A DNA stretch of 64,000 bases from Companilactobacillus allii (GTDB lineage: Bacteria; Bacillota; Bacilli; Lactobacillales; Lactobacillaceae): contig NZ_CP019323.1 in NCBI RefSeq assembly GCF_001971585.1, positions 310,001-374,000 of the forward strand. Reading direction: 5' to 3'. The translations under genes and the position numbers were made by a program. The first letter of the stretch is position 1; each line of letters begins with the position of its first letter. The notes under the pieces were generated by a model. That model ran no database searches, was not told where the DNA came from, and saw only the letters and a list, made by a program, of their open reading frames with translations. Positions 3,810-36,566 of this stretch are shown here, one piece after another.

Positions 3810-4894
3810 TATAGAGCCTCCATAATTTCTTTCATTCTTATAATAATTTGATCCATTTCAACATCATCAACTGATCTAATATCAAATTCGATAATACCAA
3901 CATTGACACGATACTCGCGTGCGTAGATAGCTATATCGCCGTTACGTAACTGCTCACATATTTGCTCTGCCTTATCAGTTTTGACACTTGCTCGATAAAT
4001 ATCTCTACCTGCACCATCTTGAACAATTTTTACATCCAAACCAATAGATTGGAGTTTTTCAACAAACGGTTCCAAGCGTTTTATCATCTGCTGACCATTT
4101 TCAGGTCCTTCATCTAGATACTGCTCGATTGCACTAGTAAGTCCAATGATATTTTCTTTACCAATCTTCATCGCACGTCCCATGCCTTTGCTTTGTATCC
4201 TGGCCCAACTGATATATTTTTCTTTACCAAAAACGACACCTGAAGCAGGACCCTCAATCGACTTGGCACCGCTATATATCACTGCATCAACACCCATTTG
4301 TAGATACTTGGTTAGATCTTCCTCAGCGGCAGCATCTAAAACTAAAGGTAAATCGTGCTTGTGGGCAACCTTTATTGCATCTGGAATTGATAACATACTC
4401 TTTTGCACAGTATGATGACTCTTGATATATAAAATTGCAGCTGTCTGTTCAGTAATTTGCATTTCAATATGTTCTGGAGTACACATGTTGGCATATCCAG
4501 CCGGGATCATCTTTGCCCCAGCAACACCAAGCATCACATCTACTGGTGCACCGTAATCGACGTCATGTCCCATTGGAAGGATTACTTCGCGCTTAGTGAT
4601 TCTTGTAGTATAAGGATGATATACATGATACATATCACCTTGACCAATGATTCCGGCTATTACTTGAGCAATACCAGCTGACGCTGAATTAACTATCAGA
4701 GCATCTTATGAACCAACAAGTTTGGCAATATATTTTCCAGTTTGTACAACCAAATCAGACATTTCAAAGAAATTTTGTCCACCAATCTTTTGTGCCTCAG
4801 CGACTTTGTCAGACACTTTTGAAACTCCAAGAATGGTCATTTTCCCATCCGCATTAATTACGTGTCTCAAATTGTACTTTTCATATACATCCAT
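3809..4894 (-). pseudogene. dgaE: DgaE-type PLP-dependent ammonia lyase, interrupted by in-frame TAA
   Basis: SelA-like PLP enzyme of the D-glucosaminate-6-phosphate ammonia lyase type, which would remove ammonia to give KDGP. The reading frame is intact over 361 codons except for one TAA at 4706-4708 (codon 63). Immediately after it the frame continues as DALIVNSASAGIAQ and then YHVYHPYTTRITKRE, so this is a single nonsense change, not a frameshift. The PLP lysine is in YSGAKSIEGPASG, in the downstream part. An ATG at 4631-4633 preceded by AAGGTG could restart translation, but that product would lack about 87 N-terminal residues. All flanking operon genes are intact, which suggests a recent mutation, a strain variant or a sequencing error. 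Confidence 0.8.
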
Positions 4895-6013
4895 TTAGAT
4901 TCCTCCAATTGAATACACATTACCGCCGACAATACTGTACTTCGGTTTGACAAGTGTATCAGTAATTCTTGTATTACCATTTGAATCCGTTAATTCCTTA
5001 CGTCCATGTTTGATATCAAATATTGTCACATCGGCATCATATCCAGACTTCAATAACCCTTTTCTCGATAAACCAAAGTTCTTGGCGGGACGACTTGTTA
5101 TCATTGGGATTATCTCTGAAATTTTATATCCCAGTAATAGTAACTTCTCAATACAAGTGGACATATCATAAACTGGCCCATCTTCTCGATTATGATGATA
5201 AATATCAGTACTCAAAGTTTCGGGATATAACTTATATTGTTTAGCAATCTCAGCTGTGTGGAAGTTAAAGCTATCAGTCCCATGTCCAACATCGAAAATA
5301 ATGCCATGCTCATAGCCATCTTGGACAAAGTCCTTGATATTGTCATTTTCATCCAAAATACCATTTGTTTTGCCGTTAAAGCAGTGTGTCATAATGTCGC
5401 CTTTATCCATAATTGTCATTATCTCTGACAATTCAGGAGGATTAGTACCCACGTGAACCATTAGTGGTAGATGTTTATTGAGCTTCATTTGGAAGTACTT
5501 TGCTTCAACCAGTGGATTGATACCGTTTGAGACCACGACAGACTTACTGATTCTTGCCTTAATTCCAACGATAAAATCAGGATATTCATCGACTGCTGCT
5601 TGCAGTTTTTGAAGATTCAATCTTCGCATATCCCCCAGCTCATCTTGTGCTAAAATACCAGTCTCAGAAATATTGATCATAGCGTAAACGTTAGTCAGCT
5701 TGTCACGGGTACGTGTGTAAAAGTCCTTGATATTATTGGCTCCGGTTGACCCCGCATCAATGACAGTCGTAACGCCGGTTTTATATCCATCTTCGTCTGG
5801 ATCATCATAATACAGTGTTAATTTTTCATAACAATGTACATGATCATCAATCCAGCCCGCAGAAACGATCGATTGTCGTTCCAGGTCAATTGTTTTGTCT
5901 GCCACAACGTTTCTTATCTTGGAACTAACACGTTCAATTTTTCCATTTGTAATCAACAATTCGATTGGTTCTAAATATTCATTCAGTCCATTCTTTATGT
6001 ATAAATCGGCCAT
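4895..6013 (-). CDS. amidohydrolase/deacetylase family metallohydrolase
   Basis: A 372-residue amidohydrolase-superfamily TIM-barrel enzyme. It shows the N-terminal metal motif as DDHVHCYEKL (residues about 56-65), a candidate carboxylated-lysine region in VGIKARIS, further metal histidines in MVHVGTNPP and MTHCFNG, and the catalytic Asp in STDIYHHN. This subgroup is usually named amidohydrolase/deacetylase. In this operon it would remove an acetyl group from a 2-acetamido sugar acid before DgaE acts, which is an inference. It abuts dgaE with no gap (stop codon then ATG). Confidence 0.8.
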   Translation of the reverse strand: MADLYIKNGLNEYLEPIELLITNGKIERVSSKIRNVVADKTIDLERQSIVSAGWIDDHVHCYEKLTLYYDDPDEDGYKTGVTTVIDAGSTGANNIKDFYTRTRDKLTNVYAMINISETGILAQDELGDMRRLNLQKLQAAVDEYPDFIVGIKARISKSVVVSNGINPLVEAKYFQMKLNKHLPLMVHVGTNPPELSEIMTIMDKGDIMTHCFNGKTNGILDENDNIKDFVQDGYEHGIIFDVGHGTDSFNFHTAEIAKQYKLYPETLSTDIYHHNREDGPVYDMSTCIEKLLLLGYKISEIIPMITSRPAKNFGLSRKGLLKSGYDADVTIFDIKHGRKELTDSNGNTRITDTLVKPKYSIVGGNVYSIGGI

Positions 6014-31842: not shown

Positions 31843-32592
31843 ATGGAAAATAAACAATGGCCGATATTTTATATTCACGGCTTTCGTGGTGGGGACTACA
31901 CGACTGAAAAAATGATTGAGTCTGCATTGAAGTTTAATCATAAAGACGAATATTTAAAAGCTACAATTAGTTGGCGTGGAAAAATCACATATGAAGGAAC
32001 TTGGACTAGTGATCATCATCCAATAATTCAAGTTGTTTTTAAGAACAAATATGTCGGAAGTACGCAGATATCATACTGGTTATCCAAATTACTATTCAAT
32101 CTAAGAACTAAGCATGAATTTGATACTTATGATGCAATCGGGCATTCACTTGGTGCTGTAGCTTTACTTTTGGTTAATTTAAAAGAGAAGCTTCATCCCT
32201 ATATGCCTAGATTAAAAAAGCTAGTTACTATAGCTGGTCCATTTAATGGCATATTAGGTCTAGGGGACCTTCCAAATGTCAACCGTATTAAGCCTGATGG
32301 CCGGCCGGCCTTTATGAGTCCGACTTATTTCAGAATTTTTATGGGTAGGAATTCTATATCAGACGATTTGAGAGTCTTGAATATATACGGTAATGTTGAT
32401 GATCATTCAAATAGTGACAAATATATTTCGGTGACATCTGTAAAATCAATTTCATATATTCTTAAACCTCGTGTCAAAGAATATATTGACTATCCAGTCA
32501 ACGGATCCAAGGCTGAACATTCTCTTATGCACGATAATTCAGAAATATTAAAGCGAGTAAATAATTTTATTTATTCCAATCCATTAACATAA
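31843..32592 (+). CDS. DUF915 alpha/beta hydrolase
   Basis: A 249-residue cytoplasmic alpha/beta-hydrolase. IFYIHGFRGG (residues 9-18) is the oxyanion strand, AIGHSLGAVA (about 104-113) the nucleophile elbow, and EHSLMHDNSEI near the end supplies the catalytic His. No signal peptide is seen. Substrate is unknown for this family. GGGG precedes the ATG and the gene shares a short divergent promoter region with rnhA. Confidence 0.83.
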   Translation: MENKQWPIFYIHGFRGGDYTTEKMIESALKFNHKDEYLKATISWRGKITYEGTWTSDHHPIIQVVFKNKYVGSTQISYWLSKLLFNLRTKHEFDTYDAIGHSLGAVALLLVNLKEKLHPYMPRLKKLVTIAGPFNGILGLGDLPNVNRIKPDGRPAFMSPTYFRIFMGRNSISDDLRVLNIYGNVDDHSNSDKYISVTSVKSISYILKPRVKEYIDYPVNGSKAEHSLMHDNSEILKRVNNFIYSNPLT

Positions 32593-32673
32593 TATTTAAT
32601 TTATGGTTTATTTAATTGTTTATTTATGTTAACTTGGTTTGTTAGTAACCGAACCATTTAGGAGGGCGACTTT

Positions 32674-35418
32674 ATTAAATCTTTTGAATTATTTAAGTTA
32701 GATATTAAACGTACTTTAAAATCAACGCCGGCAACTCTTTTGATGCTAGCGCTGATTATTTTGCCATGCCTTTATTGCTGGTTTAATGTATGGGCATTGT
32801 GGGACCCATATTCCAATACTAGTGATTTGAAAGTGGCTGTTTATTCTGATGATCAATCAGTTAAATTAAACGACGAAAAAATTGCGATTGGTAAAGATCT
32901 AATTGCCAATTTAAAGAAGAACGATGGTTTAGGATGGACATTTGTCGACTCTAAACAAGAATTGAATCAAGGGGTAAAGGACGGTAGTTATTATGCTGGT
33001 ATCTATATTCCCAAGAATTTCTCCAAAGATATTATTAGTTTTGCTTCTGGAAAAATAAAGAAGCCTACTTTGGTATACTCTGTTAATCAAAAAATAAACG
33101 CTGTTGCGCCAAAACTGACCAGTTCCGGAGCGACGACTCTGCAGAATACAATTTCTGAAGAGTTCATCGGAACCGTCAGTAAGACAATAACTAATGTCTT
33201 GAACAAATCTGGCGTAGAAATTGAAAATAACCTACCAATGTTACGTCGTTTATCCAGTCTATTAGTCACGACTGATGATAATCGCGATGAATTACAAGAC
33301 ATCATGGACAAAGTTAAACAAGCTAATACAATCGTGCCTGATTTAAATAACAAATTAAGTGAAGCAAACGAAATGTATGGCTACATTCCACAATTAAATA
33401 CTGATGCACAAAAGCTCGTTACATTGAATAACTTCTTACCACTAGCTGATTCCGGTGGTACCGCTGTAAAACAACTTCAAAATAAAATACCCGAAATCCA
33501 GAGTGCTGGTACTCAGATCAACACTGTTGACACTGATTTTAGCCAAATTTCCAACTTAATGGATAGCAGCATAACTCAGGTCAATAACGGTATCAATGTC
33601 ATTACATCAGTGGAAAACGTTATGCCAGAAGTTACCGAATTTGGTAAAAGTGCCCAATCTAGCGTTGAAGATGTTAATAACAATCTGATCCCAAAACTCC
33701 AAAAGGCACTGCCAGTTATTAAATCAACTGTCGATACTGGATTATCAATGGTTTACAACTTATCCAAACAGATCAGTACTTCAGCAACCAATATAAATAC
33801 CTTGATCGATAAAATCAAAGAAAATCCTGATAATGATCAGGTACAGTCACAGTTAAAGACGGTACTTCAAAATATCGCTGATAATGGTGCACAGATTGGG
33901 AGCGTGGCTAAACAAGTCGCTTCTACATTAACTGATCTGCAGAATACTTATAATCAACTTGCCTCTCAAAACGGTAAGGAACAAACAACAAAACTTGATC
34001 GACCAATCAAATTGCTCAATAACTTAGAACCCTTAGGGAATACCTTGGCAACACAGGCCAACTACATTCTTGATAATTACGACAATTTGAGTACTGATGA
34101 ACTGCAAAGCAAATTGACTGAACTAGCAACACAATCAAATACTCTTGCTGACCAAGTGACTTCGATCCAAAATCTTGGGATTATAGATTCTGTCTCTGAT
34201 ACTATATCCACTACTCAGTCACTGTTAACAAGTGCCAGTACCGTCTTAAGTGACTTAAATACCAGTGTCATCCCTGAGATTCCAGCGTTATTGAACAATA
34301 CCAAAGGAATCCTGCAAACAGCTCAAACTTATCTACAGAAGTATCAACAACAATTGCCCGCAATCGGTAATGAAATTCACGATGCCAACACATTGCTCAA
34401 TGGCAATATGAGTAACATCGTTACAGGAATCAATGTTGCCAATGACTTTTATAACAATGACTATCCTAATTTAAAGAAAAAATTAGCTACGGCAACTTTC
34501 TTCGTTCAATATCAATTACCTGAAATTGAGAACCAGTTAAGTACAACTTTGAATCTGATCAATACTAAAACACCAGAATTAGAGCAATCACTAGCCGCAG
34601 CTAATGACTTCGCTGTAAACGACTGGCCTCAATTAGAAAAAGACGTTCATCACTCTGCCAAGTTATTAAAAGCTGGGACAAAGGATGTCGATCTTTCAGC
34701 CATTATCAAATTAATGAAGGCTGATGCTAATACTGAATCTGACTTTTTCTCCAATCCAGTCAAATTGAAGCAAGACAACTTGTATAACATCCCTAATTAC
34801 GGTTCAGCTAGTGCACCATTTTATCTAGCCTTATGTATTTGGGTCGGAGCCCTACTCCTATCTAGTGTTTTCACAGTTCACTTCAAACTAAACGACAAAG
34901 AAAAACTTCGATATGGTTTCAAGCAACAATTCAATGGACGTTACTTAACTTTCTTCTCATTGAATCTATTCCAATCAATCGCAGCATCCCTAGGTAATAT
35001 CTTCATATTACATGCATACGTTCAAAACAAAGTGGCACTAGTCTTGTTTGCTATGTTGATAAGCTTTGTCTTCATATCTATCCTGTATTCACTTGTGCAG
35101 ATGTTTGGGACAGTTGGTAAAGGACTTGGAATTATCATCTTAGTACTATCAATTTCTGGTGCTGGTGGTAACTTCCCGGTTGTTCTATCAGACGGATTCT
35201 TCCGAGTCATTAATCCATACCTACCCTTCACATATGCGGTAAACTTATTCCGTGAAGCTGTTGGTGGAATTTATTGGCCGAATGCAATCAAAGACATTGT
35301 AGTTTTACTAGCCTTTGGTATCGTATTTTACTTGATGGGACTTCTACTAACCGAAAAATTGAAACCACTGATCAATAAACTTCACAAGAGTGCTAAGAAG
35401 AGTATGATAATCGAATAA
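32674..35418 (+). CDS. YhgE/Pip-family membrane protein with probable ATT start codon
   Basis: A 914-residue membrane protein of the YhgE/Pip (phage infection protein) family. It has one N-terminal hydrophobic segment (TLLMLALIILPCLYCWFNVW), a long extracellular helical region rich in Asn/Gln/Leu (residues about 150-670), and six C-terminal hydrophobic segments (ABC-2-like). The family N-terminal pattern FxLFKLDIKRTLKSTP lies upstream of the first ATG/TTG and is only in frame from an ATT at 32674, which has AGGAGGG exactly 7 nt upstream. I therefore take ATT as the start. It heads a three-gene operon. Confidence 0.85.
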   Translation: MKSFELFKLDIKRTLKSTPATLLMLALIILPCLYCWFNVWALWDPYSNTSDLKVAVYSDDQSVKLNDEKIAIGKDLIANLKKNDGLGWTFVDSKQELNQGVKDGSYYAGIYIPKNFSKDIISFASGKIKKPTLVYSVNQKINAVAPKLTSSGATTLQNTISEEFIGTVSKTITNVLNKSGVEIENNLPMLRRLSSLLVTTDDNRDELQDIMDKVKQANTIVPDLNNKLSEANEMYGYIPQLNTDAQKLVTLNNFLPLADSGGTAVKQLQNKIPEIQSAGTQINTVDTDFSQISNLMDSSITQVNNGINVITSVENVMPEVTEFGKSAQSSVEDVNNNLIPKLQKALPVIKSTVDTGLSMVYNLSKQISTSATNINTLIDKIKENPDNDQVQSQLKTVLQNIADNGAQIGSVAKQVASTLTDLQNTYNQLASQNGKEQTTKLDRPIKLLNNLEPLGNTLATQANYILDNYDNLSTDELQSKLTELATQSNTLADQVTSIQNLGIIDSVSDTISTTQSLLTSASTVLSDLNTSVIPEIPALLNNTKGILQTAQTYLQKYQQQLPAIGNEIHDANTLLNGNMSNIVTGINVANDFYNNDYPNLKKKLATATFFVQYQLPEIENQLSTTLNLINTKTPELEQSLAAANDFAVNDWPQLEKDVHHSAKLLKAGTKDVDLSAIIKLMKADANTESDFFSNPVKLKQDNLYNIPNYGSASAPFYLALCIWVGALLLSSVFTVHFKLNDKEKLRYGFKQQFNGRYLTFFSLNLFQSIAASLGNIFILHAYVQNKVALVLFAMLISFVFISILYSLVQMFGTVGKGLGIIILVLSISGAGGNFPVVLSDGFFRVINPYLPFTYAVNLFREAVGGIYWPNAIKDIVVLLAFGIVFYLMGLLLTEKLKPLINKLHKSAKKSMIIE

Positions 35419-35858
35419 TGACAAAATTAAAATCTTACAGACCATTTATAACAAAGAATTTTTTATGGGAATTCCCAACGCATTTTAAATTAAAAGAAGC
35501 CAGTGAATTTCTTGGTGACAGCATCGCTGAAACAACTGATTATATCAGTAATACTGCCAAAAACATTATGCGCAACAACAGTATCTATTGGTTTTTACAA
35601 GATAAGCGTACTAAGGAACTAGTTGGATTGATTGCTGTTGAAAATATTGATCAAGATAAAAAATCCGGAAAATTAGTAGTACAACTATCCGTTACAGACT
35701 CTATCGACAAAGAAGAAATCGCCGATAGATTAGTGACTTTTGTTAAAGAACAAATTGACCTTGATACTTTGGAATTCGAAGCCTTGGACCACATAGTTCA
35801 AGAAAAATTCACAAATAATGGTTATAATATAAGTAGTAAAGAATTAAAGAGGAGTTAA
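35418..35858 (+). CDS. GNAT-like protein
   Basis: A 146-residue protein whose start overlaps the previous stop by one base (TAATG). The arrangement YWFLQDKRTKELVGLIAVEN, then GKLVVQLSVTDSIDKEEIAD, then LEFEALDHIVQEKFTNNGY resembles the strand-helix order of GNAT acetyltransferases, but the acetyl-CoA loop is not clear. Function unknown. It lies between the YhgE/Pip protein and a membrane metallopeptidase. Confidence 0.6.
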   Translation: MTKLKSYRPFITKNFLWEFPTHFKLKEASEFLGDSIAETTDYISNTAKNIMRNNSIYWFLQDKRTKELVGLIAVENIDQDKKSGKLVVQLSVTDSIDKEEIADRLVTFVKEQIDLDTLEFEALDHIVQEKFTNNGYNISSKELKRS

Positions 35859-35864
35859 CAATAA

Positions 35865-36566
35865 ATGTATGGATATTTAGGGTATGGCTTTGGCCCCACT
35901 TTCATCTTAGTTATTATTGGTATTGCTATAAGTTTGTGGGCGTCATGGTATGTCAAGCACACTTTTAACAGGTACGACCAATATGACAGTAGTCGTGGCA
36001 CTACCGGTGCTGATGCGGCTCGTTATATTCTGGATCAATCAGGTCTCCAAAACATCCAAATCAATCGTGTCAGTGGTAATTTAACAGATAACTACAATCC
36101 TGGTAATAAGACGTTGAATCTATCAGATTCGACCTTTGCTTCTACCTCAGTTGCGGCTATCGGTGTTGCTGCCCATGAATGTGGACACGCTATCCAAGAT
36201 AAGAATGCTTATGTACCAATGCGTGCAAGAGCTGCATTAGTTCCAGCTGTGAATCTTGGATCTAATTTCTCCATTCCTTTGATCTTTGTTGGTATCCTTT
36301 TAGGAAGAAACCACACTTTGATCATGGCAGGGATTATCTTGTTCTCACTAGTTGTATTGTTCCAATTGGTCACTTTACCAGTTGAATTCAATGCCTCTGG
36401 ACGTGCAATAAAGATACTTAGTTCTGGTGATTTACTTGAAAAGAACGAAGTACCAATGGTAAGAAAAGTCCTTGGTGCAGCCGCTTTAACTTATGTTGCT
36501 GCAGCATTGTCATCAGCACTTCAATTGATACGTTTGATTTTGATATTTGGTAATAACCGAGATTGA
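35865..36566 (+). CDS. membrane zinc metallopeptidase, YugP-like
   Basis: A 233-residue membrane protease of the Zn_peptidase_2 type. An N-terminal helix (residues 9-28) is followed by a cytoplasmic or extracellular domain with the zinc motif AAHECGHAIQD near 104-114, then three hydrophobic segments. LPVEFNASGRAIKIL is a conserved third-ligand region of the family. It follows the GNAT-like gene by 6 nt and ends 2 nt before a 3-prime stem element. Confidence 0.85.
   Translation: MYGYLGYGFGPTFILVIIGIAISLWASWYVKHTFNRYDQYDSSRGTTGADAARYILDQSGLQNIQINRVSGNLTDNYNPGNKTLNLSDSTFASTSVAAIGVAAHECGHAIQDKNAYVPMRARAALVPAVNLGSNFSIPLIFVGILLGRNHTLIMAGIILFSLVVLFQLVTLPVEFNASGRAIKILSSGDLLEKNEVPMVRKVLGAAALTYVAAALSSALQLIRLILIFGNNRD

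Follow-up and report, generated by a model that had tools for sequence, protein, structure and literature searches.

Natural AUC and AUU starts are rare. In Staphylococcus aureus, AUU and AUA start codons with an extended Shine-Dalgarno (SD) sequence gave approximately 10% of the output of AUG in reporters in poor medium, and ccpN reached up to 30% of AUG output in rich medium, as described in the accessible part of PMC13009471, which also cites the autoregulation of infC in Escherichia coli. IF3 acts on such starts: raised IF3 inhibits non-canonical starts (PMC2268962, in the portion available), and in vitro the share of full-length product made from AUU with a CAU initiator fell as IF3 rose (PMC10158994, likewise). 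Among YhgE/Pip envelope proteins, PIP_EF of Enterococcus faecalis is needed for phage infection, at the DNA entry step, according to the available text of PMC4999554. Here, we analyzed a YhgE/Pip gene of Companilactobacillus allii for which an earlier note, made from the sequence, had proposed a start at ATT.

Results

The YhgE/Pip gene and its candidate start codon

The window analyzed is a 64,000-nucleotide stretch of the C. allii genome (contig NZ_CP019323.1, positions 310,001 to 374,000), and positions below are counted from its first letter. The features of the locus are as follows.

31843..32592, + strand: gene for a DUF915 alpha/beta hydrolase, the upstream neighbour, ending 81 nt before the ATT
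32659..32661, + strand: in-frame TAG overlapping the SD, which rules out a start further upstream
32660..32666, + strand: Shine-Dalgarno AGGAGGG (direct reading; predicted pairing -10.7 kcal/mol; GGAGG core in 25/25 orthologues)
32674..32676, + strand: proposed ATT start codon (direct reading; orthologue alignment; ATG in outgroup loci)
32674..35418, + strand: YhgE/Pip gene, 914 aa (TIGR03061, TIGR03062 and PF12698 matches; dN 0.10 versus L038, the nearest relative)
32740..32745, + strand: first canonical in-frame codons, TTG 32740 and ATG 32743, rejected as a start and without a real SD
35418..35858, + strand: downstream gene of 146 aa, no Pfam match
35865..36566, + strand: Zn_peptidase_2 gene (Pfam match)

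The YhgE/Pip frame is open from the TAG at 32659 to the TAA at 35416-35418 and holds 914 codons counted from the ATT. Its product exceeded the cut-offs of both NCBIfam YhgE/Pip models, the N-terminal TIGR03061 (138.3 bits, cut-off 96.15) and the C-terminal TIGR03062 (156.6 bits, cut-off 102.2), and matched PF12698 (ABC2_membrane_3) with 88.2 bits. An assignment to the type VII secretion protein EsaA was considered and rejected, the TIGR03929 score of 64.1 bits falling below the cut-off of 122. The earlier note had described the stretch ahead of 32740 as devoid of ATG, GTG and TTG, with AGGAGGG 7 nt before ATT 32674, and direct reading from the TAG onward bears this out, the spacer occupying 32667-32673. 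A longer upstream reading in the window is ruled out by the TAG, and a frameshift from an upstream ORF was rejected as not conserved, the upstream reading varying between species when compared by eye. SD pairing was computed against a generic 16S 3' tail, which underlies the value of -10.7 kcal/mol. Among 59 ORFs in the window that are 90 codons or longer and largely free of mutual overlap, YhgE/Pip alone combined a strong SD (-7 or better) ahead of a non-canonical codon with the lack of one ahead of any canonical codon nearby.

Conservation within Companilactobacillus

A search of 36 genomes of the genus returned some match in 35 and a close orthologue in 25; the remaining 11 genomes held nothing (G019) or only distant matches, with identity of at most 38%. 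All but one of the 25 orthologues are in one piece, that of G024 being split over two contigs. The aligned start codon is ATC in 23 of the 25 and ATT in two, including the window, with a GGAGG core 6-9 nt before it in every case and an SD strength, by a first measure, of -10.6 to -12.0 kcal/mol throughout. The question raised earlier, whether orthologues have ATG at this position, thus has a divided answer: no inside the genus, yes outside it, as set out below. A sequencing error at the ATT is excluded, because the aligned codon is ATC or ATT in all 25 orthologues and the 25 species agree. By comparison, five distant YhgE/Pip paralogues read in the genus have an ATG start and SD strengths of -7.2 to -9.0.

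The orthologues form two groups, one of five loci (the window, L038, L039, L040 and L029) and a second, clade 2, of 20 species. In the window and in L039 and L040, an in-frame stop at codon -5 (TGA in the latter two) overlaps the SD and precludes a canonical start further up; these are the three species that have no ATG, GTG or TTG near the N-terminus. This does not hold for the other 22, which carry an in-frame TTG upstream, at codon -5 in the 20 clade-2 species and L029 and at -6 in L038, some with another codon further up. As the start codon is doubled (ATT ATT or ATC ATC) in L038, L039, L040 and L029, the exact start codon is ambiguous in these four, while a single position fits as an AUY start in the window and the 20 clade-2 species.

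The surroundings of the gene are shared as well. The DUF915 hydrolase lies upstream in 24 of the 25 Companilactobacillus loci compared, the exception, L015, holding only the 3' half of YhgE/Pip; the 146-aa gene and the Zn_peptidase_2 gene are each present in 24 of 25, the exception in both cases being L029, which ends before them. L015 and L029 are the two half-loci of G024, cut by contig ends. Two outgroup loci, L126 and L020, likewise carry the Zn_peptidase_2 gene close to their ATG-start orthologue. In the window and L038-L040, the 146-aa gene starts at an ATG that overlaps the stop of YhgE (TAATG), so a weak start could there also limit the next gene by coupling; the 20 clade-2 species have no such overlap. 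Four loci, L006 (about 4667-5154), L027, L028 and L007, have some 250-490 nt extra between YhgE/Pip and the next gene relative to other species; an Rfam search of the extra stretch of L006, L027 and L007 gave no match up to E 0.1.

Selection on the protein and the initiation region

Comparison of the window with L038 gave a dN of 0.10 and a pS of 0.73, synonymous sites thus being near saturation; pS was 0.79 for two others. Low dN with near-saturated synonymous sites indicates that the YhgE/Pip protein is under purifying selection and, given this saturation, the start regions are not alike merely through recency. Within clade 2, the codon is invariant in only 30 of 537 conserved columns (Met and Trp excluded). 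The start ATC is the sole invariant codon among 34 conserved Ile columns, the other 33 all varying, and codons 1-4 form the longest invariant codon run in the gene, the second longest comprising 2. Around the start, a 29-nt stretch, TTGGAGGGGATTTCTATCAAAGCTTGGGA, is fully invariant in the 20 species (for example L004 1986-2014) and covers the spacer, the SD and the TTG upstream of the ATC, while in the rest of the gene synonymous sites vary freely.

This invariance bears on the reading that translation in clade 2 begins five codons further up, at the in-frame TTG (MEGISIKAWELF...), AUY being used by the species of the window and its closest relatives alone. As a start, UUG is stronger than AUC. 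The TTG at -5 is present in 20 of 20 clade-2 species and is as invariant as the ATC, and it is the codon that a mechanical ORF caller picks in L006, as it picks TTG 32740 in the window. As the invariance reaches past the ATC to the TTG, it suggests selection on the whole initiation region and, taken alone, leaves ATC versus TTG undecided. However, the TTG overlaps the strong SD, its own SD has a median of -1.75 and a best value of -3.3 kcal/mol, and a stop takes its place in the window as well as in L039 and L040; the clade-2 ATC, in turn, is never ATT or ATA while the other 33 conserved Ile columns vary. By a second measure, the SD before the ATC of the 20 species ranges from -10.3 to -11.4, with a median of -10.3 kcal/mol. 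We favour ATC because of this difference in SD strength (-10.3 versus -1.75 kcal/mol) and because three species have a stop in place of the TTG, and consider a clade-2 start at TTG improbable.

The 29 invariant nucleotides are more than an SD and a start codon require, and something else may therefore be selected there. Folds of 91 nt for five loci (the window, three relatives and the ATG outgroup L018) gave z-scores of -1.01 to 1.82 and thus no sign of a structured leader. Rfam returned one sub-threshold match, on the opposite strand (21.8 versus a gathering score of 46.4 bits), and a promoter scan around the start found 3 sites versus 2.6 expected. Clade 2 also shows, by eye, a TATATAAT box approximately 45-55 nt before the ATC.

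A start in the window's species at TTG 32740 or ATG 32743 would yield a protein of 892 or 891 aa, and TTG 32740 is the first canonical start in frame. It lies 22 codons downstream of the ATT, with an SD of -1.7 kcal/mol against -10.7 for the ATT, and together with ATG 32743 sits in a hydrophobic stretch that we read by eye as the first transmembrane segment. The earlier observation that N-terminal family sequence lies upstream of TTG 32740 was borne out by the N-terminal model TIGR03061 (164 positions), which the ATT reading matches from position 3 and the TTG-32740 reading from position 16. Starting at 32740 would thus drop 13 positions of the model along with the N-terminal segment common to relatives, and would leave the conserved upstream SD and AUY codon purposeless, making this reading very unlikely.

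No more credible is the idea of re-initiation at the AUU following translation of a short upstream ORF. Studies of re-initiation in E. coli have made use of non-canonical starts (PMC2268962, in the part available), and such an ORF, of 11 codons and in frame, can be read by eye from ATG 32626 to TAG 32661, its stop overlapping the SD and ending 12 nt before the ATT. By eye, however, ATG 32626 is without an SD, and the corresponding ATG lies in other frames in L003, L009 and L029 and leads to an end elsewhere in L002; clade 2, moreover, has no stop overlapping the SD.

The start codon outside the genus

ATG stands at the aligned place or one codon before in all 16 loci of a first outgroup set, drawn from Lacticaseibacillus and two MAGs that bear the label Lactobacillus. 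A second set, with some species in common with the first, came from searching 251 genomes across the family at E up to 1e-100; of the 26 matches, 10 lie inside the genus and 16 in other genera. In the other genera, ATG is again found at the aligned place or one codon before in 15 of 16 loci. The matched frame of the sixteenth, L132, stops short of the N-terminus, and an ATG behind GGAG is visible in another frame. Taken together with AUY and a strong SD in all 25 orthologues of the genus, the ATG of the outgroup loci gives good support to the proposal that YhgE/Pip starts at the ATT.

Unless a deletion of one codon is allowed for, the outgroup ATG falls one codon before the aligned position; such a deletion near the start probably accompanied the change from ATG to AUY. 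In a gene tree of 24 AUY and 5 ATG rows, the two kinds are separated by one branch and one change is needed; this tree, in which a start was placed for just 5 of 19 supplied outgroup loci and long branches were flagged, shows only that one change suffices. These comparisons would be read most simply as a single replacement of ATG by AUY in the lineage leading to the genus.

infC and initiator tRNAs

We also examined the ribosome side of initiation. In the C. allii genome, infC has the start ATA behind GGAGGTGAC. Of 39 infC matches, 30 loci were read, one each from 30 of the 36 genomes, and the aligned start is ATA in 29 of these and ATC in one (L091). A start of infC at ATA implies that ribosomes of the genus already initiate at such codons. 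G017, G020 and G030 have two infC matches each, and L091 is one of the two G020 copies.

The tRNA inventory of the C. allii genome comprised 58 places found by Infernal, of which 55 were called by ARAGORN, two were left out and one was not called. Two of the four CAU tRNA genes are of the initiator type, and no initiator-type tRNA with another anticodon was found among the 55 ARAGORN tRNAs. The uncalled place (L111 348-421, G000:C1:1628797-1628870) is tRNA-like, scores 34.8 bits and lies approximately 230 nt after a tRNA-Ile(TAT) gene; its match to the initiator motif is its T arm. That a dedicated initiator tRNA with anticodon GAU decodes AUC and AUU starts in the genus would fit AUC being commoner than AUU (23/25) but is extremely unlikely, as C. 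allii, the one genome checked, has two CAU initiator-type genes and its three tRNA-Ile(GAU) genes, which are without the GGG/CCC stem, are not of the initiator type.

Discussion

The reading we prefer, to which we assign a probability of roughly 0.88, is that YhgE/Pip is initiated with fMet at an AUY codon, with a strong SD compensating for a weak codon that replaced an ancestral ATG and is kept by selection as a brake on the level of the protein. The AUU, or AUC in most sister species, would be read by the usual fMet initiator tRNA, whose anticodon is CAU, and the third-position mismatch would be tolerated because the strong and well-spaced SD anchors the 30S subunit. In the Companilactobacillus lineage, the weak codon would have taken over from the ancestral ATG and would persist as a built-in brake ensuring a low level of a large envelope protein. 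We infer from the comparison of orthologues that initiation really takes place at the AUY codon. By analogy with S. aureus, the AUY start would lower YhgE/Pip output to about a tenth, and low output would be what selection maintains.

The earlier note had further suggested that expression of this protein could be tied to initiation-factor status, and such a link is plausible, being a reasonable inference from sigR, ccpN and cvfC1. As YhgE/Pip is not a translation factor, there would be no autogenous loop, and YhgE/Pip would at most follow IF3; that the level of IF3 tunes its synthesis is, by the same analogies, only possible. We regard as doubtful the wider proposal that infC, with its AUA start, and YhgE/Pip, with its AUY start, act as a pair responsive to IF3, in which the state of translation would set the surface amount of a phage-receptor-like protein, with a further control element in the invariant 29 nt of clade 2.

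One AUY start kept across 25 species of the genus, with ATG in the outgroups, means that the effect of the codon could be tested in food bacteria by exchanging this codon alone. Annotation is affected too, since a search for ATG, GTG or TTG alone shortens YhgE/Pip in some species and lengthens it in others. Our literature search gave no report of this YhgE/Pip start among the matches listed, most subscription papers lying outside its reach.

The C. allii protein resembles PIP_EF of E. faecalis and Pip of Lactococcus, both YhgE/Pip envelope proteins. No unusual start is mentioned for PIP_EF in the available text of PMC4999554. The role in phage infection is a feature of PIP_EF and speculative for the C. 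allii protein; that low YhgE/Pip expression is beneficial by way of phage entry is likewise speculation, by analogy with Enterococcus.

With respect to the start itself, ccpN (AUA; S. aureus and Bacillus subtilis) and cvfC1 (AUU; staphylococci) combine, like YhgE/Pip, a conserved weak start with a strong extended SD in Bacillota (PMC13009471, accessible part). ccpN, however, is a repressor and cvfC1 a 61-aa protein, and their starts were mapped by ribosome profiling, whereas that of YhgE/Pip is proposed from sequence; the accessible text of that report contains no occurrence of 'AUC', the codon of most Companilactobacillus YhgE/Pip genes. infC (AUA in S. aureus and Companilactobacillus, AUU in E. 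coli) similarly has an AUH start with a strong SD. The AUU start of E. coli pcnB, a weak start limiting a protein, parallels what we propose for YhgE/Pip, although the gene and phylum are unrelated (from a title cited in PMC13009471). sigR of Streptomyces is likewise a gene outside translation whose non-canonical start matters for regulation, but it differs in having a GTC start, in belonging to actinobacteria, in encoding a sigma factor and in that its repression by IF3 has been demonstrated (PMC5472188, in the part available). YhgE/Pip thus apparently joins a small group of genes whose non-canonical start is conserved, among them infC, pcnB, sigR and the staphylococcal ccpN and cvfC1, its own start being apparently under selection and unusual in that the codon is AUC in most species and the gene encodes a large membrane protein.
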